This document shows positions 2,082 to 42,065 of a DNA stretch of 51,095 bases, in pieces (the first letter of the stretch is position 1; every line of letters starts with the position of its first letter). The DNA is from a bacterium (GTDB lineage: Bacteria > Actinomycetota > Acidimicrobiia > Spongiisociales > ZC4RG35), in contig JAPPFD010000029.1 in assembly GCA_028823995.1 (NCBI GenBank), positions 1 to 51,095 of the forward strand. The letters are read 5' to 3'. Both the position numbers and the translations under genes were made by a program. The notes under the pieces were generated by a model. It was not told the DNA's origin, made no database searches, and saw only the letters and a program-made list of their open reading frames with translations.

Positions 2082-2672
2082 ATGGCTGAGAAAGGCACCG
2101 ACGAACTTGAAGCTCTGGTGGCGGAGTGGCACGCTCATGGTGACTCTGAGAAACTATTCCGGGAATTACGCGGACCGATGCGAAGGTCAGCACGGAGGGG
2201 TCTTCGGTTCATTCTTGGGGAAACGCCCGACGAGCATGATGTGGATGAGGCAGTTCTCAAAGCGTTTCGGGAAGTGCTGCGGAAGGAAAACCCGCGATCC
2301 CTGGTGGGCTACGCCTGCACTGTTGCCAAGCGTCGTGGGATGGACATTGCACGGTCTATTTACAGGAAGCGGAATCACCTCAGAGAAAACGCTTGGAAGA
2401 TCAACCAACTTCGGTGGAGTCTCGAGGATGAGGAGGCAGCAGCCCAGGACGAGTTGTTATATCGGCAGGCAGAGGATTGCCTGGCCGAGTTGACCCCAGA
2501 ACAGAGAGAGGTGATCGAATTGACAGTGAGACAACAGAAGTCACTCTCGGAGTGGGCCATGAGACGAGGCGTAAGCTATGAAGCCGCCCGCCGAATGCGG
2601 GAGCGAGGCGTCAATAGCTTGAGGCGCTGCGTTGAACGCAAATCGGCTGACGGGGATGGGGAGGTGCTGTGA
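2082..2672 (+). CDS. ECF-like RNA polymerase sigma factor
   Basis: This 196-residue protein has the two-domain layout of ECF sigma-70 factors. A sigma-2-like helical region lies at about 50-100 (DVDEAVLKAFREVL, then LVGYACTVAKRRGMDIAR). A sigma-4 helix-turn-helix lies at about 130-185 (ELTPEQREVIELTV, then YEAARRMRERGVNSLRR). The start is ATG at 2082. It heads a run of overlapping genes; its stop overlaps the GTG of the next gene by four bases, so the two are probably translationally coupled. It may direct transcription of this operon or act as a DNA-binding regulator of it. No classical membrane anti-sigma factor is adjacent; the next, unrecognised protein is the obvious candidate partner. 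The family call is good; the role in this locus is inference. Confidence 0.75.
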   Translation: MAEKGTDELEALVAEWHAHGDSEKLFRELRGPMRRSARRGLRFILGETPDEHDVDEAVLKAFREVLRKENPRSLVGYACTVAKRRGMDIARSIYRKRNHLRENAWKINQLRWSLEDEEAAAQDELLYRQAEDCLAELTPEQREVIELTVRQQKSLSEWAMRRGVSYEAARRMRERGVNSLRRCVERKSADGDGEVL

Positions 2673-3568
2673 ATCCGGAAAAGAGTGAAGAGCACCTCTC
2701 CACATTGATCGATGTCCATCTGCAATTCCTACGGGGCAGGGGCCCAGAGCCGGATCTGACAGATCTTAATGAAGAAGACCGCGCCGAGGTCGCCCAGACA
2801 TTGAAACTCATTGAGGTTTTGGCCGACTCCCTGCCCGAATCGCCTCCGATGGAGAAAGATCCCGTAGCGATTCAACTTGGCTTGGGTGAGGTCGGAGACC
2901 ACCAAGCCTTAGACATCCAGATTCCCGGTCCGGTAGTGAAGGATGTCGAAGGCCTTTGCTCAGGGTTCGGTGGGGCGGTGCGAATGGACGTATTGGCCAA
3001 TGGTATATCAAACGGCACCCGGGACAATCTTGTGTGCCACTCCTTGGCCGAAATGGTAATTGTTGCAGTCCTCGACGCTTCGGACCTCCCTCAGAATTCT
3101 CGAGATGCATTACCGATCTTCACCGACCATCCTGAGGTGACTGCGGTTGCGTTTAGTAGCCCAGATGCCTCCAGAGCAACCGTTGTCACGTACAGCCAAT
3201 CGGTTGGCCATTTGATCCCAGCGGAGGGTCAGATGACATCTAGAGAACTTGAGTGGGAGCCTCTAGAGATTGCGCTTGGCCGCTATCTGGAACGTTCGAT
3301 ACCGCGCTGGGAGGAGGTACGCCTACTGCCACCCGACGACAATCTAGATCCTCTTGTAGTTGACGTTTCTGGAGTGGTGGCATCGGAATTGACAGGGGTT
3401 GCTCGCCTTCGTCCGCGACTTCCTCACAAGCAAGAGGCACGTAACTTCGTCACCCAGATCGAGAACTCTCTGATCAGTGGATGGGTCGAGGCAGCGCGCA
3501 GCGGTGAGGTTTCTCAAGGTGCCCTCATCGCGGACATCGCTGCAAGGTGTGAAGTGTCAGAATCGTGA
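2669..3568 (+). CDS. Unrecognised protein coupled to sigma factor and Rad50-like ATPase
   Basis: I do not recognise this 299-residue protein. It starts at a GTG overlapping the sigma-factor stop and ends overlapping the GTG of the ATPase gene, so it is locked between them. The N-terminal 70 residues are acidic and helical with a proline-rich spacing (RGRGPEPDLTDLNEEDRAEV), then DPVAIQLGL. The middle looks alpha/beta (LAEMVIVAVLDASDLPQNSRD) and the C terminus is helical. No transmembrane segment, signal peptide or nuclease motif is evident. The position suggests either a regulator of the sigma factor or a partner of the ATPase, as Mre11 is to Rad50, but no phosphoesterase motif supports the latter. 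Confidence 0.75.
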   Translation: MNPEKSEEHLSTLIDVHLQFLRGRGPEPDLTDLNEEDRAEVAQTLKLIEVLADSLPESPPMEKDPVAIQLGLGEVGDHQALDIQIPGPVVKDVEGLCSGFGGAVRMDVLANGISNGTRDNLVCHSLAEMVIVAVLDASDLPQNSRDALPIFTDHPEVTAVAFSSPDASRATVVTYSQSVGHLIPAEGQMTSRELEWEPLEIALGRYLERSIPRWEEVRLLPPDDNLDPLVVDVSGVVASELTGVARLRPRLPHKQEARNFVTQIENSLISGWVEAARSGEVSQGALIADIAARCEVSES

Positions 3569-5325
3569 TACGCAGAATCACAATCCGCAACTGGCGCGCG
3601 TATCGCGACTCCACAATTGACTTGGACTCTCCAATGGTGTTTTTTGTGGCGCCAAATGGAGTCGGTAAGTCCTCGCTCTACGAAGCAGCTCGACACTGCC
3701 TGTTGGGATTCCCAAAGAGCAAAAGTGCTAGGCAGGCGATACGGGCAGGTAGCCAGAGAGCCGAAGTGTCGATGGAATTGACTGTAGTCGATGGAACGGT
3801 GGTGAGCGTCACTCGCACCCTCACACGCACCGGTCGGACATCATTCGCTGCCTCCAGAGGAGGCAAGACTCTAAGTGAGGCTTCTTTCGTTGACCTTCTG
3901 GAACGCTCATGGTCAACAGACCTGACCCTTTGTGACCGACTCGCCTTTGGTGACTTGGAAACCACACCAAGGATCAAGAAGGCGTTACCGATTAGGGAGC
4001 ATCTGGCGAACTTGCTTGGGGTTACTCCACTGATAGAGACAGCGCGGTCCCTAAAGGGAGCGCAGGCCGTTGCTTCTAAGACTGTTGCTGCTCTACGCTC
4101 CGAGGTTGCAGGATCAGAAGAGAAAGTTGCATCACTAGAGGCTGGGCTAGACCATGCCGAAACTGGTTACCAAGCACTCAACCGTGAGCTTCGAAAGTTG
4201 CGACCCCGAATGGTGGAAGCGGAAAGAGCAGCCAAACATAGCGAAGCCTGGAAGACTTACAGGTCAGCCGCAGCTAAGTACAACCAACGAGTTCAAGAGT
4301 TTCTGGCCGATGTCGGAGATCTGATCACGATTGACCCGACCAACCCAGATGTCGGGTTAGAGACCGCTCGTCAGGAGGCCGCGGATGCTGTGGGAGCGGC
4401 TCAGGAGGCTATGCAGAATGCAGATAGGGCCGCGGCTAGGGCGGCAACAGCTTCAGAACTGTTGGAGTCGTCAACCCAGATTTGCCCCACATGCCTACGG
4501 CCAATGAGCCGAGAGGAACGCTCATCCGCATTGCTCTCCCACGGCGAAACCGTTTCCCGAGCATCCTCGGTAACGGAGGCTACCAGTGCCACCAGAGCGG
4601 ACGCCAAGCGTCATCTGCAACTAATGACCGACTTATCCCGCCGATTTGATCGCCTCCAACCTCCGAATCTACCCGAAGTCAATGATCCCGGTGTCAAGGC
4701 CATCACGGAACTAGAAGCCCTGCGCGCGTCGGAGGGCCTTCTGCGGGAACGACTTGGTGAAGCACGAGCAAAGCGCGCCAATGCTCTCTCCGTGTTAGAG
4801 AGAGCGCGCTCAGATTTGTCGAAAGCTGCCATGCTGAGGCAAGCAGCCCGGGAAGAGTTATTGCTTGGTACTACAGCATCCGTATTCGAGACCGTTGCGC
4901 ATCGTTACCTAGCGGACCGAATTGAACCATTGACCCGAGACATCGCTCATAGGTGGAAACTCCTGTTCGGCTCAGAAGGACTTGCCCTTAGCCCGACTGG
5001 GGAGATCCGAATGAGGCACGGAGATAGACATCTGGATCTTCAAGACATGAGCGGAGGGGAGCGTGCCATAGCGGGGATCATTGTCAGGATGCTCGTAACT
5101 GCCTCAGCGACACGGATCCCCATGGTCTGGTTTGATGAGCCGCTTGAACACCTTGATCCAAGGCGTCGATCCGGTGTAGCACACACGCTGGTGAAAGCTG
5201 TAGCGGCCGGCACCGTTAACCAAATTCTTGTGGCGACATATGAGGAGGGCATCGCTCGACGACTCGCGCTTTCCGCACCAGATCTTGTCACCGTCGTGTG
5301 CGCCGACACGGAGCCCTTCAACTAA
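3565..5325 (+). CDS. Rad50/SMC-like zinc-hook ATPase
   Basis: This 586-residue ABC-type ATPase belongs to the Rad50/SMC group. Walker A is at residues 29-37 (APNGVGKSS). Coiled-coil-like segments run from about 165 to 440, with a CPTC zinc-hook motif near their middle (Cys307 and Cys310). The ABC signature (MSGGER) is near residue 495 and Walker B (VWFDEPLEHLD) near 519. It is much shorter than canonical Rad50, so the coil arm is short. It starts at a GTG overlapping the preceding gene. Such proteins bind DNA ends or structured DNA and often act as sensors in defence systems. No Mre11-like nuclease lies beside it. It ends 103 bases before the Ubl gene on the same strand, consistent with one transcriptional unit. 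Confidence 0.85.
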   Translation: MIRRITIRNWRAYRDSTIDLDSPMVFFVAPNGVGKSSLYEAARHCLLGFPKSKSARQAIRAGSQRAEVSMELTVVDGTVVSVTRTLTRTGRTSFAASRGGKTLSEASFVDLLERSWSTDLTLCDRLAFGDLETTPRIKKALPIREHLANLLGVTPLIETARSLKGAQAVASKTVAALRSEVAGSEEKVASLEAGLDHAETGYQALNRELRKLRPRMVEAERAAKHSEAWKTYRSAAAKYNQRVQEFLADVGDLITIDPTNPDVGLETARQEAADAVGAAQEAMQNADRAAARAATASELLESSTQICPTCLRPMSREERSSALLSHGETVSRASSVTEATSATRADAKRHLQLMTDLSRRFDRLQPPNLPEVNDPGVKAITELEALRASEGLLRERLGEARAKRANALSVLERARSDLSKAAMLRQAAREELLLGTTASVFETVAHRYLADRIEPLTRDIAHRWKLLFGSEGLALSPTGEIRMRHGDRHLDLQDMSGGERAIAGIIVRMLVTASATRIPMVWFDEPLEHLDPRRRSGVAHTLVKAVAAGTVNQILVATYEEGIARRLALSAPDLVTVVCADTEPFN

Positions 5326-5428
5326 CCACTGCTGCCGGGGGGGGGTTGTGTTTTCCAGAACTGGGACGACTTTAAGGTGAACACGCCCGAGAGGGCAAGC
5401 CATTCACAACACATGGGAGGTAGAACTC

Positions 5429-5713
5429 ATGATCACAACTACCGAAACACAACTTGCCGCTGAGTTCGACAGCGGCGGTGCCCGACCTTTAAACGCGGAG
5501 GACTTCCTCTTCGAGGTCGATGGCGTGACTTACCAATCAAAGCGACGCAAGCTCACTGGTGCGGAGATCATGGCGGTGGCCAAGATCCCTCCTTCGGACG
5601 GACTCATCCAACTCTTCCCGGACGGTACAACAGCCACAATCGCCCCAGCCGAAGAGGTCGACTTGGAACCTGATGTAAAGTTCAAGCGGCGCCCGCGGTT
5701 CAAGCGGGGCTGA
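5429..5713 (+). CDS. Ubiquitin-like modifier, multiubiquitin family
   Basis: This 94-residue protein has an N-terminal tail of about 25 residues, then one beta-grasp-like domain (FLFEVDGVTYQ, LTGAEIMAVAKIPPSDGLIQL, DLEPDVKF) that fits the multiubiquitin family found in bacterial Ubl operons. It would be the protein tag activated by the E1 and passed to the E2 encoded next. The start ATG has a strong ribosome site (GGGAGGT, seven bases upstream). The protein ends exactly in Lys-Arg-Gly rather than Gly-Gly, so a conjugatable C-terminal glycine is exposed without trimming. Only one Ubl domain is present although the family name implies repeats. The next gene starts one base after the stop. Family assignment rests on the sequence pattern plus context. 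Confidence 0.82.
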   Translation: MITTTETQLAAEFDSGGARPLNAEDFLFEVDGVTYQSKRRKLTGAEIMAVAKIPPSDGLIQLFPDGTTATIAPAEEVDLEPDVKFKRRPRFKRG

Positions 5714-5714
5714 G

Positions 5715-6125
5715 ATGTCTGATCTTGGTACCCGGCTGGACAAGCGTCTTGATCGCGAAGAAGTCACCCTGCTCCGAGACTTCCCAACCGTCCGACTGGA
5801 CCGCGAAGCTAAGACCCTCATCCTGCCTCGGTACCAGCTCCCACATGGCTGGTCCCACCAGACGACTGATGTGCTATTCGTAATCCCAGACAATTATCCT
5901 GCAGGATGCCCTGACAATGTCTGTGTACGCCCGGATCTGCGACTGGCCGGCGGGCAGATGCCAGATGGAACCCTCGGATGTGAGTCCTACGGAGGCCGAG
6001 AGTGGCTACAACTGTCCTGGCATGTCGACTCCGGGGGCTGGATGCCGACCGGCGATCCTTCCGAGGGAAGCAATCTCGGGAGCTACCTCATCGGGGCATT
6101 GGGTCGGTTCGACGACCCAAGTTGA
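5715..6125 (+). CDS. E2-like ubiquitin-conjugating enzyme (prokaryotic E2 family E type)
   Basis: This 136-residue protein shows the E2 outline: an N-terminal helix, two beta strands, then FVIPDNYPAGCPDN in the place of the proline-rich E2 segment. A conserved-looking turn follows with Cys89 (GTLGCESYGG) and then a Trp-rich stretch ending in helix SYLIGALGRF. Cys89 sits where the E2 catalytic cysteine is expected; Cys65 and Cys70 are alternatives. It would accept the Ubl from the E1 domain as a thioester and pass it to a target. The ATG lies one base after the Ubl stop, and the stop abuts the ATG of the E1 gene directly. The function is strongly supported by neighbours; the catalytic residue assignment is inference. 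Confidence 0.8.
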   Translation: MSDLGTRLDKRLDREEVTLLRDFPTVRLDREAKTLILPRYQLPHGWSHQTTDVLFVIPDNYPAGCPDNVCVRPDLRLAGGQMPDGTLGCESYGGREWLQLSWHVDSGGWMPTGDPSEGSNLGSYLIGALGRFDDPS

Positions 6126-7502
6126 ATGTCCAGCCTTAAGTTTACCGATCCACGCCATTGGGAGGCCCTTGAAAAACATCTTGCGGGAGGTGTGGGTGAG
6201 CGCTTCGCTTTCGCCCACACCCGGTATCTGCAAGAGACCAGTACAGGTCCTCTTCTTGAGGTGACCGGCATTGAGTTGATCGAGGATACCGATGTCACGG
6301 GTAACACGACCGGTTGGTATCTGAGTGACAATGCCCTTGATCGAGTCCACAATGCTGCACTCCGCGGCAGCTATGGGCTTATCGAATTCCACAATCATTC
6401 CGTCGGGCCTCCCAGATTCTCACACATCGACAAAGCCAACATCCCACCGATGGCTTCTTACGTAGCATCGCTCATACCGGATCAACCCTACGGTGCTGGC
6501 GTATATGCGGAAGGACGTGTTTACGTTGAACACTGGACTAAAGACGGCAACGACATCCATCGAGGAGAGTTCCGCTCAGTCATTGTTTGCGGCCACCAAC
6601 TCCGCCTCGTCAACGCTCCTGCCCCCACCAAACGCAGGCGCTTAGCCCGACAGGATGATCTCCTCGGGGCCTGGGGGAGTGCCACTTTAAAGGGACTGCG
6701 GGTCGCAGTTGTCGGCCTCGGTGGAACAGGATCACACGTGGCGCTTGCCCTCGCCTACCTGGGTGTGGGCGAATTGCTACTCCTAGACAGCGACTGTGTG
6801 GAGACCACCAATCTGAACCGGGTGGTGACTGCAGGAGTGGCCGATGTCGGCGCTCCTAAAACCCTGGTAGCGCGCCGTCGCCTGCGTGAAATTGATCCCG
6901 GGCTCAGATGCACCGCCCTAGCAGCCATAACTCCTGACAAACCCCACCCCGAACTCGAGGATGTCGATCTCATCGTCGGCTGTGTCGATCATGATGGGCC
7001 CCGGGACCGACTCAACCAGATAGGGGTAGATACGGCCACCCCCTATCTTGACATCGCCACTGGCATAGACCTTGATGCGGAGGTGCCCATCATAGGCGGT
7101 CGGGTGATTTTCGTACGGCCTGGTGGTCCCTGCTTGCACTGCTTTGACGAACTAGACCCTATGGAAGTCGGCCGCTGGGCAAAGGACCCCAGCCAACAAG
7201 CGTTGGACAGGCAGCACGGTTACGGAACCTTGGAACCCGATCCCGCTGTAGTCCACCTCAACGGTATCACAACTTATGCCGCCATAGGTGAACTCATCGC
7301 CTGGATTGCGGGATGGCGATCTCCAGCCCAGTTTCTCGACATAGATCTGTCAGGATTCTTGGAACAAAGCCCTGGGACGCCAGGGTCCAGAGCTACACCA
7401 CGACGACCCTCTGAACCCCTCTTCGACTGTTTGAGCTGCAGTCATCTTCGTGGTTCACCGGTAATGGGACAAGCAACCACGGCTCCACGATCTAAGGGAT
7501 AG
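6126..7502 (+). CDS. JAMM isopeptidase fused to ThiF/E1 activating enzyme
   Basis: This 458-residue fusion joins removal and activation activities of a Ubl pathway. The N-terminal 160 residues are a JAB/JAMM metalloprotease: His89-Asn-His91, seven residues, Ser99, two residues, Asp102 is a perfect JAMM zinc motif (EFHNHSVGPPRFSHID). Residues about 185-440 are an E1/ThiF domain with the nucleotide loop GLGGTGSH near 197, the LDSDCVETTNLNR adenylation segment and a C-terminal zinc site built from CLHC (336-339) and CLSC (435-438), as in MoeB/ThiF. E1 adenylates the Ubl C terminus; the JAMM domain would process it or remove it from targets. Cys972-type eukaryotic features are absent; Cys in VGCVDHDG is one possible thioester residue. 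The start abuts the E2 stop. Confidence 0.9.
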   Translation: MSSLKFTDPRHWEALEKHLAGGVGERFAFAHTRYLQETSTGPLLEVTGIELIEDTDVTGNTTGWYLSDNALDRVHNAALRGSYGLIEFHNHSVGPPRFSHIDKANIPPMASYVASLIPDQPYGAGVYAEGRVYVEHWTKDGNDIHRGEFRSVIVCGHQLRLVNAPAPTKRRRLARQDDLLGAWGSATLKGLRVAVVGLGGTGSHVALALAYLGVGELLLLDSDCVETTNLNRVVTAGVADVGAPKTLVARRRLREIDPGLRCTALAAITPDKPHPELEDVDLIVGCVDHDGPRDRLNQIGVDTATPYLDIATGIDLDAEVPIIGGRVIFVRPGGPCLHCFDELDPMEVGRWAKDPSQQALDRQHGYGTLEPDPAVVHLNGITTYAAIGELIAWIAGWRSPAQFLDIDLSGFLEQSPGTPGSRATPRRPSEPLFDCLSCSHLRGSPVMGQATTAPRSKG

Positions 7503-7507
7503 TTATT

Positions 7508-8266
7508 GTGCAACAGCCAGACCTATTAAATCCTTCGGAGTCGCCAGCCCAAGATACTACGAGAGAAGCTAGCTCGAGCTCTCTCCCTTGGATACGCAGC
7601 ACTCTCTGTAAATTGGTTCGCCTGTTTCGACGCATCGGTCATTTGTTGCAAAATGCCTACAGCGCCGTTCGACAACAAAGCCTTAAGTTTGGTGATTATA
7701 TAATACCGCGTGTGCTAAGAGGTATACTCTGGCTACAAACCAGTTGCAGAATAGCCGCTCAAGTACATAGTAGTTTAATAGATGCGTTCTTCACCTGGAC
7801 TGACAGACTAATAAGGAGAACGCTTAGGGCATTACTCGTTGTCATAATCTTGATAGCTCCAGTCTCCTATTTATCCCCCGCACAGGGTTGGTTTCTTTTC
7901 AATTGGCTCGCGATTGTTTTCCCTGGCACTTTGATTGGTGTCTGGTTTCCTACTCGGCGCGATCGGGCCACATCCTTCTTGCAAAAACATAGTGGCCGGA
8001 TTCTTGGTTTCATTTCTTTCTTGGTGACTGTAGTGTCGTTTAGATATGGCTTCGCGCTGTGGGAGTGGACTAATAGCCTGTCATCTGTGCTGGCAGTCTT
8101 ACTGTGGCCTTACCTCATTTGGACCGGTGTAGGATCCTTTCTGTTTTATGTCATGCCAGATAGTTGGCCCAGACTCCGAGGATGGATAGCTACCTTCACA
8201 TTGGTCTCAGCAGTATTGGCTGGACTATTCCTTTTTCTCCTCCTCCTGACAGCCAGCCAGTTCTAA
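7508..8266 (+). CDS. Multi-pass membrane protein ending the Ubl operon
   Basis: This 252-residue protein matches no family I recognise. The first 100 residues are basic and amphipathic, probably cytosolic. The rest carries four or five hydrophobic segments (near 107-125, 128-147, 163-182, 190-213 and 222-247). It starts at a GTG five bases after the E1 stop, so it is very likely co-transcribed with the Ubl genes. Its DNA is clearly AT-richer than its neighbours and uses many A/T-ending codons, which suggests a separate origin. In defence operons a terminal membrane protein is often the killing effector, and here it could be a target or effector of Ubl tagging. That is inference; there is no motif for pore formation or catalysis. 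Confidence 0.75.
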   Translation: MQQPDLLNPSESPAQDTTREASSSSLPWIRSTLCKLVRLFRRIGHLLQNAYSAVRQQSLKFGDYIIPRVLRGILWLQTSCRIAAQVHSSLIDAFFTWTDRLIRRTLRALLVVIILIAPVSYLSPAQGWFLFNWLAIVFPGTLIGVWFPTRRDRATSFLQKHSGRILGFISFLVTVVSFRYGFALWEWTNSLSSVLAVLLWPYLIWTGVGSFLFYVMPDSWPRLRGWIATFTLVSAVLAGLFLFLLLLTASQF

Positions 8267-8643: not shown

Positions 8644-11600
8644 ATGACTGTTGACTCCAAGGGCCGCGGGCTCTTTATCGTCGACAACAGCGTTTCCGGT
8701 TGGACCGGACGTCGGTACTTGGAAGAGTGGACCAGCATTGCGGAGGCGTTCGACATCGCTACCGGTTTTTTCGAGATCGGGTCCCTGCTAGCCCTTGACG
8801 GCAAGTGGCAGGGGCTCGACAAACTCCGAATCCTGATGGGTTCGGAGACTACCCATCGGACACGGAGGGCCATACTCGATGCGGTCAGGACAACAGCGGT
8901 TGACAGGCTTGATGGGAGTTTGGAGGAAGTCAAGGACACAAACCCTTTCCTGCACGGAGTTCCTGCCATCCTCGAAGGGCTTCGCTCCGGGCAGATCGAT
9001 TGCCGTGTCTACGACAAAGGTAAGTTCCACGCGAAGGCCTATATCACCCACGCACGGCTCGAAGTCGTGGGTTCTCAGGCACTGGTGGGTTCAAGCAACT
9101 TCACAAGGCCGGGTCTATCGGAGAATGTCGAACTGAACGTCCAGATACAGAGTGCGCGTGAGGTCGCGCAGCTCCAAGAGTGGTTCGAGACGCATTGGAG
9201 GGAAGCGAGAGAGGTTACCGAGGTCGTGATCGAGACGATCTCGCGCCATACGCGTCTGTTCTCGCCGTTCGATGTCTACGCGAAAGCCTTGCAGCAGTAC
9301 TTCAGGGGACACGAACTGACAGCGACCGAGTGGGACGAGACACGGTCCCGCATGTTCCGGCAACTTGATCGCTATCAGAAGGAGGCGTATTGGGCGCTCA
9401 TGAAGATCGCCCGTCGGCACAGGGGGGCGTTCCTTTGCGACGGTGTGGGTTTAGGAAAGACTTTTGTCGGGCTGATGCTGATCGAGCGGTTGATCCTTCA
9501 CGAGGGCAAGCGTGTGGCACTGTTCGCTCCCAAGGCCACCAAAGAGGGGGTATGGGAACCCCACCTGCATCGGTGGCTTCCGCACATTGGGGGTGTCGGC
9601 GGTGGCGCGGACTTCAGCAGCCTAGCCGTCTTCAGCCACACTGACTTGGGACGAAAGGGGGACTATCCGGCGCGTTTGAAGCGTGTTGCGGAACTCGCCG
9701 ACGTCGTCGTCATCGACGAAGCGCATCACTTCCGTAACCCAGGCCGGCGGGGTGACCCCGAGGCAGGAATCGAACCCTCACGGTACTACCGCCTTTTCGA
9801 CTTGCTCAGCAATACAGAACGCCCCAAGACCTTATTCATGCTGACAGCTACGCCTATCAATAACCGCCTAAGCGACTTCCGCCACATGGCCGAACTATTC
9901 ACGGGCCGCGATGAGGCATACTTTGCCGGATCGATCGGCGTGAACAACCTACGGGCGTACTTCAACCAGATGGAGAGGGAGCTTCGCAACCGGCTGGGAC
10001 AAGACGCGGTGGATGCCACGGAGCACATGACCGAAGCCCAAGAGATTCTCTTCAATGACACCTTCTTCCGAGAACTCGTCGTCCAGCGGAGCCGCGCTTA
10101 TGCGCGTGAGAGTCAAACTCGAGAGCACGGTAGAGCAGCCGCCTTTCCCGACCGGAAGGACCCTAAGGTGGCCGCGTACTCCATCCGCAAGACCTACGGC
10201 CGGATGCTCGACCTGGTTGAGAAGGCTTTCGCTAAGGAGAATCCGCTCTTCACGCTCCCCATGTACTACCCGCTTCACTGGTACCAGGGAGACGACAAGA
10301 ACGTGGACCCGTTCGAAGAGAACCGTCAGAAACAGGTGGTTGGTCTCATACGAACGAACTTTCTCAAGCGCTTCGAGAGCTCAGTCGCCGCTTTCGAGCT
10401 CTCCTGCGACCGCCTGCTCCGAAAACTGCTCTCGTTCGTTGAAGTTCACAGTAACAGCGACGCCGAAAGGAACCGCCTCGATCGGTGGAAGACGCAGAAT
10501 GCCGAAGTCTTGGGATACGTCCCCCGTCAGCGCCAGCTCTGGGGGGAACAAAGTGAAGAGGAAGACGACGAAGACATCGTTCCCCCGGAAATGCTAGAGG
10601 CGGTCGAACGTCTCGACCGTGCGGACTTCGACGTCAGCGAGATGCTGTTTGAGACGTTCCTAGACCTCGACCAAGTTGCACAGTTCTTGAACGAGGCTCG
10701 GAAGTTTGAACCTAGGCATGACGACAAGCTCCAGAAGCTCATCCGGCTGCTGAAGTCAAGAGCGTTGGCCGACCAGAAGATTCTGATCTTCACCGAGTTT
10801 GCCGACACAGCACGCTACCTCAAGCGGCATCTGGACGAAGCTGGTATCGAAGGCGTTGAACAGGTGGACAGCGCCACGAAACGCAATCGCGCCGATGTCA
10901 TCCAACGCTTCGCGCCCTACTACAACGGACTCTCGTCCCCAGAACTCGCCCACCAAGGCCGTCGGGAGATTCGCGTCCTTATCTCCACCGATGTCCTCTC
11001 GGAGGGCCTCAACCTCCAGGATGCCTCACGGATGATCAACTACGACATCCACTGGAATCCGGTGCGTCTCATGCAACGCATTGGCCGAGTGGACCGTCGC
11101 ATGAATCCTGCAGTTGAGGATCAGATCATTGCCGACCATCCCCAAGCTGCCGAGACGCGCGGTGCTGTCTGGTTCTGGAACTTCTTGCCGCCCGACGAGC
11201 TGAACGACATCCTTACCCTCTACACAAAAGTTACCCAAAAGACACTGATGATCTCAGAAACCCTGGGTATCGAAGGCAAGAAGCTTCTTACGCCGGAGGA
11301 CGACTACGAGGCTCTGAAAGAATTCCACCATGCCTACGAGGGCACACGCACAGCCGTCGAGGACATGCACCTCGAGTACCAGGCGTTGATCCAAACTCAT
11401 CCTGACCTGGAGGCGCGTCTCGCTCAGTTCCCTGGCGCGATCTTTAGCGGCCGTAAGCGTCCGGCAAAGGGTGTGCGTGGTCTGTTCCTCTGCTACGCAC
11501 TTCCAGCACTCGACAAGGAAAGGAACGAGTTCACCGAGGAGGCCGGTACCACACGCTGGTATCTCTACGACCTCGACCGCGAGACAATTGTTGATAGGCC

Positions 11601-11784
11601 AGGCGACATCGTTAACAGCATCCGATCAAAGCCCGCCACTCGCCGGCGCTGCACTATGGAAGAGAAGAGCCTCCTTGATGTTCGCGGGCAGATCGAGAAG
11701 CATATCAAGAACAGCTACCTGAAACGGGTGGATGCTCCATTGGGCATCAAACAGCGGCTTGTCTGCTGGATGGAACTGAACTAG
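8644..11784 (+). CDS. PLD nuclease-SNF2 helicase fusion (restriction-like)
   Basis: This 1046-residue protein joins an N-terminal phospholipase D-type nuclease domain to a SNF2/DEAH superfamily 2 helicase. The PLD half-site is near residues 128-150 (FHAKAYI, then GSSNFT). Helicase motif I is near 268 (DGVGLGKT), the DEAH box near 357 (VVIDEAHH), motif III near 399 (LTATPINN). The C-terminal RecA lobe covers about 710-820 (ILIFTEFADTARYL, VLSEGLNLQD, QRIGRVDRR). A charged linker separates the lobes. It would translocate on DNA and cut through a dimer of PLD sites. The gene lies ten bases before an adenine methylase gene, so the two form a restriction-modification pair. Similar helicases (DrmD) occur in DISARM, but the other DISARM genes are absent. 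Confidence 0.88.
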   Translation: MTVDSKGRGLFIVDNSVSGWTGRRYLEEWTSIAEAFDIATGFFEIGSLLALDGKWQGLDKLRILMGSETTHRTRRAILDAVRTTAVDRLDGSLEEVKDTNPFLHGVPAILEGLRSGQIDCRVYDKGKFHAKAYITHARLEVVGSQALVGSSNFTRPGLSENVELNVQIQSAREVAQLQEWFETHWREAREVTEVVIETISRHTRLFSPFDVYAKALQQYFRGHELTATEWDETRSRMFRQLDRYQKEAYWALMKIARRHRGAFLCDGVGLGKTFVGLMLIERLILHEGKRVALFAPKATKEGVWEPHLHRWLPHIGGVGGGADFSSLAVFSHTDLGRKGDYPARLKRVAELADVVVIDEAHHFRNPGRRGDPEAGIEPSRYYRLFDLLSNTERPKTLFMLTATPINNRLSDFRHMAELFTGRDEAYFAGSIGVNNLRAYFNQMERELRNRLGQDAVDATEHMTEAQEILFNDTFFRELVVQRSRAYARESQTREHGRAAAFPDRKDPKVAAYSIRKTYGRMLDLVEKAFAKENPLFTLPMYYPLHWYQGDDKNVDPFEENRQKQVVGLIRTNFLKRFESSVAAFELSCDRLLRKLLSFVEVHSNSDAERNRLDRWKTQNAEVLGYVPRQRQLWGEQSEEEDDEDIVPPEMLEAVERLDRADFDVSEMLFETFLDLDQVAQFLNEARKFEPRHDDKLQKLIRLLKSRALADQKILIFTEFADTARYLKRHLDEAGIEGVEQVDSATKRNRADVIQRFAPYYNGLSSPELAHQGRREIRVLISTDVLSEGLNLQDASRMINYDIHWNPVRLMQRIGRVDRRMNPAVEDQIIADHPQAAETRGAVWFWNFLPPDELNDILTLYTKVTQKTLMISETLGIEGKKLLTPEDDYEALKEFHHAYEGTRTAVEDMHLEYQALIQTHPDLEARLAQFPGAIFSGRKRPAKGVRGLFLCYALPALDKERNEFTEEAGTTRWYLYDLDRETIVDRPGDIVNSIRSKPATRRRCTMEEKSLLDVRGQIEKHIKNSYLKRVDAPLGIKQRLVCWMELN

Positions 11785-11793
11785 GGCTGATCG

Positions 11794-14700
11794 ATGCAGA
11801 CCGACCACCGCCAACGCCTCGCTGACATCCGCCGTTTTGACCAACTGGTCGTCTATCTCCGCGATGACCTCAGCTGGCCGATCGAATCGGATGACTTTGA
11901 GGAAATGACATTCGAGTACACGCCGGGGGAGCTTGGCATCGACGATAAGAATACGGCCAAAATCCAGGAGATCAGACGTCTGCGCCCCTTAGCGCCTAAC
12001 CAGCCATGGGGCATTTTCTTTGTCAAGTTCGAGCCGAAGCGCTTGCCTGTCGTAGCCCTGCGTCGCATCCTCGGCCAAGTCACCCTCAAGCGACGCGCCT
12101 CTGCCAACCCGTCCGAGCGGCAAGCTTGGGCCATTGATGACCTGCTCTTCGTTTCCAACTATGGGGAGGGCATGGAGCGCCGCATCGCCTTTGCGCACTT
12201 CTCGCAACCGGCGAGCGGCCGTGACCTGCCCACGCTCAAAGTGCTCGGTTGGGACAATCTGGACACGCCGCTCCACCTCGACGCCGTCGCACAAGAGCTA
12301 AATGACCACCTCACCTGGCCCGAAAACGAGGACGACCACGATGCTTGGCGCGATCGATGGCGCTCCGCCTTCACACTGCGCCACCGCGAGGTCATCACCA
12401 CCTCAAAGCAACTCTCCGAGCGCCTGGCCAGATTGGCCCGGGCGATCCGCTACCGCATTCAGACAGCATTAGCCATTGAGCCCGAGACTGGTCCGCTCAC
12501 CAAACTTATGAAAGAGTTTCAGACCGCACTCGTCCACGACCTAAACAAGACAGACTTCGCCGACATGTACGCCCAGACCATTACATACGGACTCCTCTCG
12601 GCCCGGATCGCCGGCCCGGCGGGCCGCAACGCGGACGACCTCGCTGCGCAGATGCGGACGAACCCGTTCCTGAACGAACTCATGGACACCTTTCTTCACC
12701 TGGGAGGACCCCACGAGAAATCGAGCGGACTTGGTATCGACTTCGATGAGCTGGGCATCTCCGAGGTTGTGGAACTCCTGGACCAGGCCAACATGGAAGC
12801 CGTAGTACGCGATTTCGGTGACCGCAACCCCACGGAAGATCCGGTCATTCACTTCTACGAGAGCTTTCTCGCCGACTACGACAGGGACCAGAAAGTGAGT
12901 CGAGGTGTCTTCTATACGCCGCGTCCCGTGGTCTCATACATCATACGCTCGGTGGACGAACTGCTCCGCGCGGAGTTTGGCCTCGAGGATGGCTTGGCCG
13001 ATGTCACAACCTGGGCTGAGATCACAAAACGCCTCAAAGACCTCAAGATTCCGGACGGCATCGCGCCGGACCAATCTTTTGTCCAGATCCTCGACCCGGC
13101 CACTGGCACAGGAACCTTCCTCGTGGAGGTCATAGACCTCATTCACAACACAATGAAGGAGAAGTGGCAATCGCTGGGCCACGCCGAACAGCAGATCGTA
13201 GCCCTGTGGAACGATTACGTCCCTAAACACCTCCTGCCTCGCCTACACGGCTACGAAATCCTGATGGCCCCCTACGCCATCGCACACCTCAAGATCGGCC
13301 TCAAACTACATGAAACCGGCTATCGCTTCGAAACCAACAAGCGGGCCCAGGTCTACCTGACTAACGCGCTCGAGCCACCCGGTGATAAGCAACTGAGACT
13401 CGATCTCCTCCCGGCGCTTGCACACGAGGCCGCAGCGGTTAACGAAGTCAAGCAGAACCAGCGTTTCACAGTGGTGATCGGCAATCCACCATACCTAGGG
13501 GAAGCCGGTCGAGGTGGTACCTGGATAGCAGCACTAATGCGGGGGTGGGAAGCTCAGCGTGAACGGAGCACCTTGAGCTACTTCGAAGTCGACGGAGAAT
13601 CCCTCAATGAGCGCAACCCGAAGTGGCTTAACGACCTCTACGTCCGTTTTACACGACTCTCCCACTGGCTGTTGGAGCAGGCTGGTAGTGGAGTTCACGG
13701 GTACATCACGAACCACAGCTACATCGACAACCCGACCTTCCGAGGCATGCGATGGGCCCTGCTCACATCCTTCGACAAGCTCTTTCTGCTCGACCTGCAC
13801 GGAAACCTGAAGAGGAAGGAGACAACACCCGACGGACGCAAGGACGGCAATGTCTTCGACATTGAACAGGGAGTAGCAATCGGTCTGTTCGTTAAGAAAT
13901 CTCCGGGCGCCCACATGTTCTCCGCTGCTCGTTTGCGTCATGCGGACTGCTGGGGAGCAAGGGCTGACAAGTACAAATGGCTACAAGACCACAGTGCCGC
14001 CAGTTCCAAGTGGGCCGATGTCGCTCCTTGCGCAGAGTTCTATCTGTTCAAGCCTTTTGAAGGTGTGGGGACGGATGGTTACTCAGACTGGCCCTCGATC
14101 AAGAGAATCATGCCGGTTAATTCAGCCGGAATTGTCACGGCTCGCGATCCACTCACAATCCACTTCGATTCTGAGACCGTGTGGAAAACAGTGACCGACT
14201 TCTGCAGAATTGACGATGAAGCAGCCCGCGCCAAGTACAAGCTTCGGAAAGACACTCAAGAATGGAAGATAGCGTGGGCCCAAGAAGACCTGCACCTGGC
14301 AGGGCCGTCCTGGCATGACATCAAGCCGATACTCTATCGCCCTTTCGATATCCGATTCACGTACTACACCGGGCAGTCGCGAGGGTTTCTGTGCAGGCCG
14401 CGTTCCGATGTCATGCTCCATTTGCTTGCGGGGGAGAACATAGGTCTGGTGACCTGCAGGCAACAGGCGCGGGATAGTGACCGGTGGGCGCAAGTGTTCG
14501 CCACGTCCCGGATCTCAGAGAGCTGTGCCATTTCGAACATAACCCGAGAGATCAACTATGTGTTTCCGCTCTACCTCTATCCGAGGGTAGGCAAAGCCGA
14601 CCGAACCGCACTTTTCAGCCGATGGCCTAAAGGCAAGAACGGTCGCACACCGAATCTCGACTCGGGATTTGTCAAACAGATTGCAAGTGCCACCGACCTG

Positions 14701-15303
14701 CGGCTCGATAGCGACGGCCGCGGCAACTTCGACGACACCTTCGGCCCCGAGGACGTCCTCGCGTACATGTATGCGGTGTTCCATAGTCGTGGTTACCGCA
14801 ACCGCTACGACTCACAACTCAAGCTCGACTTCCCCCGAATTCCGCTGCCAGGAGGGGCTGAGCTCTTCCGAGAGTTGGCGGAAGCTGGCCATGAGTTGCT
14901 GGCCCTACATCTACTGGAATCGCCGAAGCTCGATTGGCCAATCACCACCTACACAGGTCCCAGGAAACCCGTAGTTGGCCGCGTTGGTTGGTCGGACGGG
15001 ACCGTCTGGCTGGACGCTGGCAAAACCAACGCTCGCCAGGGCCACCGCGCCATTGTGCCCGGCACCATCGGATTTTTAGATGTGCCCGAGGAAGTTTGGG
15101 ACTTCCGAATCGGTAGTTACCAGGTGTGCCACAAGTGGCTTAAAGACCGCAGAACCCGGGTTCTCTCCGGCGAAGACATTGTCCACTACCAGAGAATCGT
15201 CATCGCTTTGGATGAAACCATCCGCATCATGTCCAAGCTCGATGAAATAGCCGTAGCCCACGGCGGCTGGCCCGACGCATTCTCGACCGGATCGCTGACA
15301 TAG
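11794..15303 (+). CDS. Type ISP-like N6-adenine DNA methyltransferase with specificity domain
   Basis: This 1169-residue protein is a gamma-type N6-adenine methylase. S-adenosylmethionine motif I (ILDPATGTGTF) is near residue 433 and catalytic motif IV (NPPY) near 562. The first 400 residues are a helical domain, and the segment FYTPRPVVSYIIRSVDE leads into the methylase. The C-terminal 200 residues (YMYAVFHSRGYRNRYDSQLK, DFPRIPLP) match the type ISP C-terminal specificity domain. In classical type ISP enzymes nuclease, helicase, methylase and specificity parts are one polypeptide; here nuclease and helicase are in the preceding gene, ten bases upstream. It probably methylates self DNA and supplies the target recognition for the pair. 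Recognition sequence unknown. Confidence 0.9.
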   Translation: MQTDHRQRLADIRRFDQLVVYLRDDLSWPIESDDFEEMTFEYTPGELGIDDKNTAKIQEIRRLRPLAPNQPWGIFFVKFEPKRLPVVALRRILGQVTLKRRASANPSERQAWAIDDLLFVSNYGEGMERRIAFAHFSQPASGRDLPTLKVLGWDNLDTPLHLDAVAQELNDHLTWPENEDDHDAWRDRWRSAFTLRHREVITTSKQLSERLARLARAIRYRIQTALAIEPETGPLTKLMKEFQTALVHDLNKTDFADMYAQTITYGLLSARIAGPAGRNADDLAAQMRTNPFLNELMDTFLHLGGPHEKSSGLGIDFDELGISEVVELLDQANMEAVVRDFGDRNPTEDPVIHFYESFLADYDRDQKVSRGVFYTPRPVVSYIIRSVDELLRAEFGLEDGLADVTTWAEITKRLKDLKIPDGIAPDQSFVQILDPATGTGTFLVEVIDLIHNTMKEKWQSLGHAEQQIVALWNDYVPKHLLPRLHGYEILMAPYAIAHLKIGLKLHETGYRFETNKRAQVYLTNALEPPGDKQLRLDLLPALAHEAAAVNEVKQNQRFTVVIGNPPYLGEAGRGGTWIAALMRGWEAQRERSTLSYFEVDGESLNERNPKWLNDLYVRFTRLSHWLLEQAGSGVHGYITNHSYIDNPTFRGMRWALLTSFDKLFLLDLHGNLKRKETTPDGRKDGNVFDIEQGVAIGLFVKKSPGAHMFSAARLRHADCWGARADKYKWLQDHSAASSKWADVAPCAEFYLFKPFEGVGTDGYSDWPSIKRIMPVNSAGIVTARDPLTIHFDSETVWKTVTDFCRIDDEAARAKYKLRKDTQEWKIAWAQEDLHLAGPSWHDIKPILYRPFDIRFTYYTGQSRGFLCRPRSDVMLHLLAGENIGLVTCRQQARDSDRWAQVFATSRISESCAISNITREINYVFPLYLYPRVGKADRTALFSRWPKGKNGRTPNLDSGFVKQIASATDLRLDSDGRGNFDDTFGPEDVLAYMYAVFHSRGYRNRYDSQLKLDFPRIPLPGGAELFRELAEAGHELLALHLLESPKLDWPITTYTGPRKPVVGRVGWSDGTVWLDAGKTNARQGHRAIVPGTIGFLDVPEEVWDFRIGSYQVCHKWLKDRRTRVLSGEDIVHYQRIVIALDETIRIMSKLDEIAVAHGGWPDAFSTGSLT

Positions 15304-15408
15304 ACTGCTCCGGGCGATGCACTTGACGGTTCCCGTCCCTGCGGTCCCGGCTACTAGCCGAGAAGCCTCGGTGAGTAATCTTCTCAATCTGCCTCCAACT
15401 ACCTAATT

Positions 15409-15441
15409 GGGCGGTGAGTGCGTGGTTCACCTTCACCGCCC
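15409..15441 (+). terminator. Strong hairpin after the methylase gene
   Basis: Arms GGGCGGTGA (15409-15417) and TCACCGCCC (15433-15441) pair perfectly over nine bases around a 15-base loop. It lies 106 bases after the methylase stop and before the protease gene. No T-tract follows, so it may be a Rho-assisted terminator or a transcript-stabilising hairpin. Confidence 0.45.
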
Positions 15442-15523
15442 CTTCTGGGCGTGAGCCGGACTTCCGGGTAAGGATCGTGAAGTACGGCCTCGCGGGCCAG
15501 CTGGCTTGCTCGGAGGTCCCTTC

Positions 15524-16243
15524 GTGATCACCTCAAATGTCATTCACCGTACGTTTCACATTCGCTACGGCGCTAAAAGCGGTACCGCCTTTGCTATCGA
15601 TCGCAGTAACCGTCAATACCTCATCACGGCCCGACATGTAGTTCCCGACATTGTTGATGACGACATCCTGCACATCTTCCACGAGAAACAGTGGAAGATG
15701 GTTGAGGTCAAAGTGGTCGGGACCGGCGAGGGCGGGATTGATGTTGCTGTCCTGGCCTGCCTTGTTCGGTTGGCACCCTCCCTTCCGCTGGAAGCGTCGG
15801 TGGCGGGCCTTACCTACGGGCAGGATGTCTACTTCCTCGGGTTTCCCTTTGGATGGGATGCCGGCGCGGAAAACATCAACCTCAACTTCCCACTGCCATT
15901 CGTGAAATCTGGGATTGCCAGTGCAATAACCTTTGACGATCCAGCTCATATCTATGTCGATGCGCACGGGAACCCGGGGTTTAGTGGCGGCCCGCTGGTC
16001 TTCAAGGATCCGCAGGGTGGCCCGACTGAATTCAGTGTGGCCGGCATTGTGTCGAATGCTCCGACACCGCTGCTCACTCCTGTCGTGAACAGCGCAGGCA
16101 AACCGGTTGACACCTTAGGAGGTTCTGGAGCGTTCCTTGCTGAGAACCAGGGTTTCGTGGTTGCGATAGGCATTCGCCACGCTACAGAGATTATTGACGC
16201 GAATCCCGTAGGGTTCGAATTGCCCGAGGACGAGGCCAAATAA
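15524..16243 (+). CDS. Trypsin-like serine peptidase, cytosolic
   Basis: This protein of about 239 residues has the chymotrypsin-fold triad: His in ITARHVV, Asp in GIDVAVL and Ser in the GNPGFSGGPLV box. No signal peptide or PDZ domain is visible, so it probably acts inside the cell. The GTG at 15524 is preferred over an upstream TTG at 15506 because a GGAGG ribosome site sits seven bases before it. It lies at the right end of the defence island, separated from the methylase by about 220 bases with a hairpin, so it may be transcribed alone. Trypsin-like peptidases occur as effectors in several conflict systems. A role in defence is inference; a housekeeping protease is possible. Confidence 0.8.
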   Translation: MITSNVIHRTFHIRYGAKSGTAFAIDRSNRQYLITARHVVPDIVDDDILHIFHEKQWKMVEVKVVGTGEGGIDVAVLACLVRLAPSLPLEASVAGLTYGQDVYFLGFPFGWDAGAENINLNFPLPFVKSGIASAITFDDPAHIYVDAHGNPGFSGGPLVFKDPQGGPTEFSVAGIVSNAPTPLLTPVVNSAGKPVDTLGGSGAFLAENQGFVVAIGIRHATEIIDANPVGFELPEDEAK

Positions 16244-41721: not shown

Positions 41722-42065
41722 AATTGCACCTCCACGAGTTGCAGAATTTCACGATCTTCGAGCCCGGCTCGGCGGGCTTCGCTCACCAGAGTGCGGGCCA
41801 GTTCAACGTGGCGGGTCACCGGCTGGGCGTTGGCAACCACGGAGGTGCCCCGGCCTCTGCGGACCTCCAACAGTCCCTCGTCCCGGAGGGTCTGGAACGC
41901 CCGTAGGACCGTGTGCATGTTCACTCCCAGCCCCCTGGCCACTTCCCGCGCCGGAGGCAACTTCTCGCCTTCCACCAATGCCCGGGTTGCTATGGCCCGC
42001 CTCACCTGGCCGGCCAGTTGCTCATGAAGGGGCTGCGAAGACTGTGTATCGATCTTCCAGAGCAT
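41718..42065 (-). CDS. GntR-family regulator, YtrA type
   Basis: This 115-residue regulator has the GntR winged helix (LHEQLAGQVRRAIATRALVE, LPPAREVARGLGVNMHTVLR, LLEVRRGRGTSVV) and only a short helical tail, as in the YtrA subgroup. ATG at 42065 is chosen: a TATAAT box ends six bases before it, so the message is probably leaderless. An inverted repeat spans the same promoter, suggesting autorepression. It controls at least itself and the coupled DUF1648 gene. Confidence 0.88.
   Translation of the reverse strand: MLWKIDTQSSQPLHEQLAGQVRRAIATRALVEGEKLPPAREVARGLGVNMHTVLRAFQTLRDEGLLEVRRGRGTSVVANAQPVTRHVELARTLVSEARRAGLEDREILQLVEVQL

Follow-up and report, generated by a model that had tools for sequence, protein, structure and literature searches.

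It is not settled what switches on bacterial operons for ubiquitin-like (Ubl) conjugation and for the cyclic oligonucleotide-based antiphage signaling system (CBASS). CapW, CapH with CapP, and CapK with CapS regulate immune operons, Bub and CBASS among them (PMC13373217), and CapS, the best described of them in the literature consulted, is a repressor. Here we describe a locus on contig JAPPFD010000029.1 (positions 1-51,095 of the forward strand, called the window below; its start is a contig end) that points to regulation by a sigma factor. Seven open reading frames (ORFs) run on the + strand from 2082 to 8266, overlapping by 4 and 4 bases and then separated by gaps of 103, 1, 0 and 5 bases; a preliminary description of this DNA had listed the same ORFs and spacing, and we found them at identical coordinates. 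The first three, which we call the triad, encode a sigma factor, a protein named ORF2 and a Rad50-like ATPase, and the next three a Bub-type set of Ubl, E2-like protein and JAMM-E1 fusion. Judging from sequence, we think it fairly probable that these six genes make up an immune-type operon, in which the dedicated sigma factor is predicted to drive both the sensor genes and the Bub-type set from two matched promoter-like sites.

The evidence for such control is a motif, GGKTG-N18-CGAC, found both 5' of the sigma gene and in the gap between the ATPase gene and the next gene. Site 1 (2045-2071, + strand) ends 10 bases 5' of the sigma start codon, and site 2 (5344-5370, + strand), with the same motif and spacing, lies in the 103-base gap 5' of the Ubl gene. 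Because the same promoter-like sequence precedes both halves, the triad is predicted to turn on the tagging genes, and the duplicated sites lend support to the transcriptional switch by the sigma factor that had been suggested earlier. Among related loci, the motif stands before the sigma gene at 8 of 8 sites (the window and L002-L008) and in the downstream gap at another 8 of 8 (the window, L002-L007 and L038), 16 of 16 overall, with an invariant 18-base spacer; the gap copy of L007 falls within the 3' end of the ATPase gene, and that of L004 precedes CBASS genes. The whole window holds four matches against 2.1 expected from shuffles, which for a 100-base gap read on one strand comes to about 0.002. 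When sites were ranked with a weight matrix whose training set was the other loci's before-sigma sites, the gap site came first in five of the eight loci and second in three; the sole better-scoring site in L002 and L005 is the locus's own before-sigma site, and the window has one better site, at 41852. A strict form, GGGGKTGYN17CGAC, has three matches in the 2.94-Mb genome, two of them sites 1 and 2, and its reversed control pattern has one. An independent branch, in which the Ubl set is divergent from the triad, agrees with this: the intergenic regions shared by the two in L045 and L066 carry inverted repeats of 26 nt (85%) and 30 nt (83%), each equaled in none of 60 shuffles, as expected for one promoter type facing both directions. 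L048 was checked for a shared promoter by eye only, and its TGTCGACA match, at a different spacing, was not counted.

Does the unit recur? Among 5.8 billion collected proteins, 50 are relatives of ORF2, and scanning a single genome for each species gave seven loci besides the window. Six of these seven share the six-gene set with the window, five in the full order sigma-ORF2-ATPase-Ubl-E2-E1 (a metagenome-assembled genome titled Acidobacteria, two Streptomyces, Mycobacterium gordonae and Amycolatopsis) and the sixth, from Pseudonocardiales, split across two contigs, L008 and L038. Within the genome collection, the genome titled Acidobacteria seems to share its phylum with the window, since searches of the two phyla gave near-identical match coordinates on the same contig numbers. 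In the seventh locus, L004 (Acidimicrobiia SB0677_bin_11), the genes that come after the triad encode a TIR-SAVED protein and a CD-NTase and are CBASS genes. Since it recurs in this way, the arrangement of the six leading genes is not a matter of chance, and the pairing of front and back halves in the preliminary description holds in other genomes as well.

Of the genomes searched with ORF2, 5 of 396, 4 of 24, 1 of 35 and 5 of 296 gave a match; searches with the ATPase matched 8 of 198, 4 of 394, 1 of 22 and 7 of 298 genomes plus one plasmid, and these sets overlap. With the loci of the single-genome scan added, distinct loci with the ATPase number 25, window included and some truncated by contig ends; this count leaves out L076 and L077, where the ATPase is present and the preceding gene is unlike a sigma factor. 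L046 (G872) was dropped as spurious-looking, being by eye a TetR-like ORF. Ubl or E1 genes lie beside the ATPase in 13 of the 25 loci, and CBASS genes in one. The 13 comprise the seven with the six-gene set; L048, a Mycobacterium avium plasmid with the Ubl set upstream of the triad, whose Ubl and E2 were identified by eye, neither having a Pfam match; L045, L066 and L075, with the divergent arrangement; and L069 and L090, with Ubl and E1 immediately 3' of the ATPase. Within L048 (1001-12792), the Ubl set, triad and a helicase adjoin Tn7-like transposase genes.

The back half is a known pathway, Bub. Its Ubl (5429-5713; tail FKRRPRFKRG) matches Multi_ubiq PF14452 at 26.4 bits against a cut-off of 24.5 (8e-6), so that the multiubiquitin-type assignment made earlier stands as to family, with one domain rather than a tandem array. 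The E2-like protein (5715-6125) matches Prok-E2_E (1e-11) and is of BubB type, and the JAMM-E1 fusion (6126-7502) matches ThiF (2e-30) and is of BubCD type; BubB and BubCD are their best solved matches. The JAB half of the fusion reaches only 0.077 in Pfam, and a profile of six orthologues aligns with Citrobacter BubCD over 13-393 (1.2e-23). The JAMM motif HxHx7SxxD is intact in the window and present in 11 of the 13 triad-linked E1s, window included. That the Ubl genes are instead a metabolic sulfur-carrier set seems very improbable: ThiF and MoeB models do also match the E1 half, and the BubCD and BubB matches bear out the conjugation set of the preliminary description against a sulfur-carrier operon.

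Like Bub systems of class 6e, the window has a Ubl, an E2-like protein and a JAB-E1 fusion in one operon (PMC1779556). It differs in that class 6e usually has two or three Ubl domains, with one solo case, whereas the window Ubl has one, and in carrying the sigma-ORF2-ATPase front in place of reported regulators. The same paper calls class 6e E2s inactive. Residue C70 of the window E2, a candidate for the canonical E2 cysteine, is invariant among the seven close E2s and absent from the six others aligned. The Ubls of L045 (9529-9783), L048 (1001-1240) and L075 (5523-5792) end in ADVA and have no terminal glycine. A separate Ubl-E2-E1-(~440 aa) operon, with no triad, occurs in L030 (566-4230), L031 (5443-9015) and L032 (7325-10608), and the Ubl-like protein of L030 and L031 terminates in Tyr-Gly. 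After the E1 of L002, at 6794-8038, comes a 414-aa protein starting VDSRNIRG that matches no Pfam family above cut-off.

What kind of switch could the front half be? Its first gene (2082-2672) encodes a 196-aa, extracytoplasmic function (ECF)-like member of the sigma-70 family, as judged from libraries, orthologues and alignment: it scores 24.6 bits with Pfam sigma-70 region 4, above the cut-off of 24.1, and 41.9 bits with TIGR02937 (sigma70-ECF superfamily), just below the cut-off of 42.9. The first gene was likewise recognized as a sigma factor by BLAST or profile, often weakly, in L002-L008, L033, L035, L036, L045, L048, L066, L075 and L089, and had no library match to sigma in L085, L086, L087 and L090; in the remaining ATPase loci it is cut off or fell outside the sigma test. 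ORF2 (2669-3568, 299 aa) is likely an anti-sigma-type partner, and in a diverged branch the second gene weakly matches zf-HC2, an anti-sigma zinc family, in four of five cases. In L034 (7645-9886) and L044 (6935-8880), sigma and the ORF2 N-terminal domain are followed by an M78 (IrrE-like) peptidase replacing the ATPase; this peptidase would be an alternative sensor on the sigma/ORF2 front. Four Streptomyces plasmid matches to the ORF2 N-terminus were set aside; none of the three inspected carries a gene annotated as a sigma factor or an SMC-type ATPase.

The middle domain of ORF2 may have a restriction-endonuclease-like fold. In one alternative, the effector would be the ATPase and ORF2, the former targeting DNA and the latter serving as its nuclease-fold partner, as in systems of Gabija or PARIS type; the sigma factor would control expression only, and the Ubl genes would be a second, co-regulated system. 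We regard this as unlikely. Compared with PD-(D/E)XK nucleases, ORF2 lacks the conserved D and E-x-K of core strands 2-3, and it was rejected as an active nuclease on finding no invariant or nearly invariant D, E or K in columns 105-134.

The third gene (3565-5325) encodes a 586-aa Rad50/SMC-like ATPase (SMC_N, 3e-15 in Pfam). A P-loop, an SGGE signature, a DEPLEHLD motif and a CPTC hook all liken it to Rad50/SbcC, from which it differs in having only 586 residues and no Mre11/SbcD-type gene among the scanned neighbors. MAD3 of MADS is its best PADLOC match (7e-22), although its 16.4 bits fall well short of the NCBIfam MAD3 equivalog cut-off of 420. None of 74 pattern matches in viral contigs was a relative of the ATPase.

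With the front half so composed, the sigma-based switch that we favor can be compared with described regulators. Like CapW, CapH with CapP, and CapK with CapS, the triad is a cassette placed before different immune operons, here Bub and, at one locus, CBASS; those regulators are not sigma factors, whereas the triad combines a sigma factor with a Rad50-like ATPase. No WYL, STAS, GHKL or HTH-plus-peptidase family was matched in the triad with Pfam or NCBIfam, and with no homologous family found, the triad would work like these regulators without belonging to them. On balance we lean toward the triad being a sigma-based, self-amplifying, DNA-sensing switch plugged into Bub and CBASS operons, a fourth kind of regulator with a nearly private promoter. 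No description of a sigma-ATPase-Bub arrangement was found in the literature searched, including passages of PMC7159879 and PMC11354881, and key Bub papers outside it may describe one.

Several points weigh against this reading. The motif and its register were derived from the very sequences counted, so the motif counts describe rather than test, and L075, also divergent, has no such inverted repeat, 24 of 60 shuffles being as good. ORF2 matches no Pfam family and no anti-sigma family in NCBIfam either, and in the branch with the zf-HC2 motif no library recognizes the first gene as sigma. The sensing of damaged or foreign DNA by the ATPase is suggested by family resemblance alone. The window E1 has Ala (PDPAVVHLN) where Citrobacter BubCD and the five other orthologues have Ser. 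The CBASS association was seen at one locus, L004, and in 11 of the 25 loci with the ATPase the fetched stretch contains no Ubl gene (L033/L070, L035, L036, L037, L065, L067/L068 and L085-L089); these 11 were examined with profiles of our own, built for E1, E2, Ubl and ORF2.

The Ubl-less loci also bear on a further alternative, in which the Ubl set acts on the triad and the signal is the attachment of the Ubl to ORF2, sigma or the ATPase, much as Cap2 modifies the CD-NTase in type II CBASS. In its favor, all six genes are tightly linked in the main branch. We nevertheless consider it improbable, the triad needing no conjugation because it occurs without Ubl genes and with CBASS genes. Conversely, a search for the E2 in 297 genomes of one family gave six matches, with the triad in one; in the other five neither ORF2 nor the ATPase appears in the fetched stretch, which in one case is just 3 kb. 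A triad without Ubl genes, a Ubl set without the triad and the CBASS case together make the triad and the Bub set separable, often combined modules.

For the sigma-based switch we propose the following course. In the resting state ORF2 would hold the sigma factor; the ATPase would engage abnormal DNA, such as phage replication intermediates or breaks, whereupon ORF2 would release sigma. The freed factor would transcribe the triad, in positive feedback, and the downstream immune operon, as the promoter match suggests. The E1 half would then activate the C-terminal glycine of the Ubl, the E2-like protein would take part in transfer, and the JAMM half of the fusion would take the tag off. The locus presumably has an antiphage function, and as tagged target the orphan membrane protein encoded by the seventh gene is less likely than some protein of phage or host. 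If this is true, a sigma factor with a strict promoter form almost confined to its own locus would be an activating, self-amplifying switch; altering a single promoter would put its regulation to a direct test, and the motif together with the triad is a sequence handle for finding immune operons under triad control.

The seventh gene (7508-8266) encodes a protein with about five membrane segments by hydropathy, co-oriented with the conserved unit and outside it. A word-based search of the 5.8 billion proteins found, at that sensitivity, no relative but itself, and it matches no Pfam family; on the former ground it was rejected as a system component. Of the seven-gene order proposed in the preliminary description, then, the first six genes recur elsewhere; the membrane protein, which had been put forward as component or target, is absent from all other loci.

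Finally, the operon region looks like a mobile island. G+C content is 0.55-0.58 across the first 15 kb of the window and 0.61-0.68 beyond, and a tyrosine integrase found by library scan (392-1546, - strand) adjoins the operon in the low-G+C part. No tRNA gene was found, and none of five other genomes of the same genus has an ORF2 match. A second, restriction-type defense set on the island lies downstream of the operon, where 8644-16243 encodes a PLD-SNF2 helicase, a restriction-modification protein of type ISP/IIG and a trypsin-like protease; the best PADLOC match of the helicase is C3a139 HKD+Snf2.
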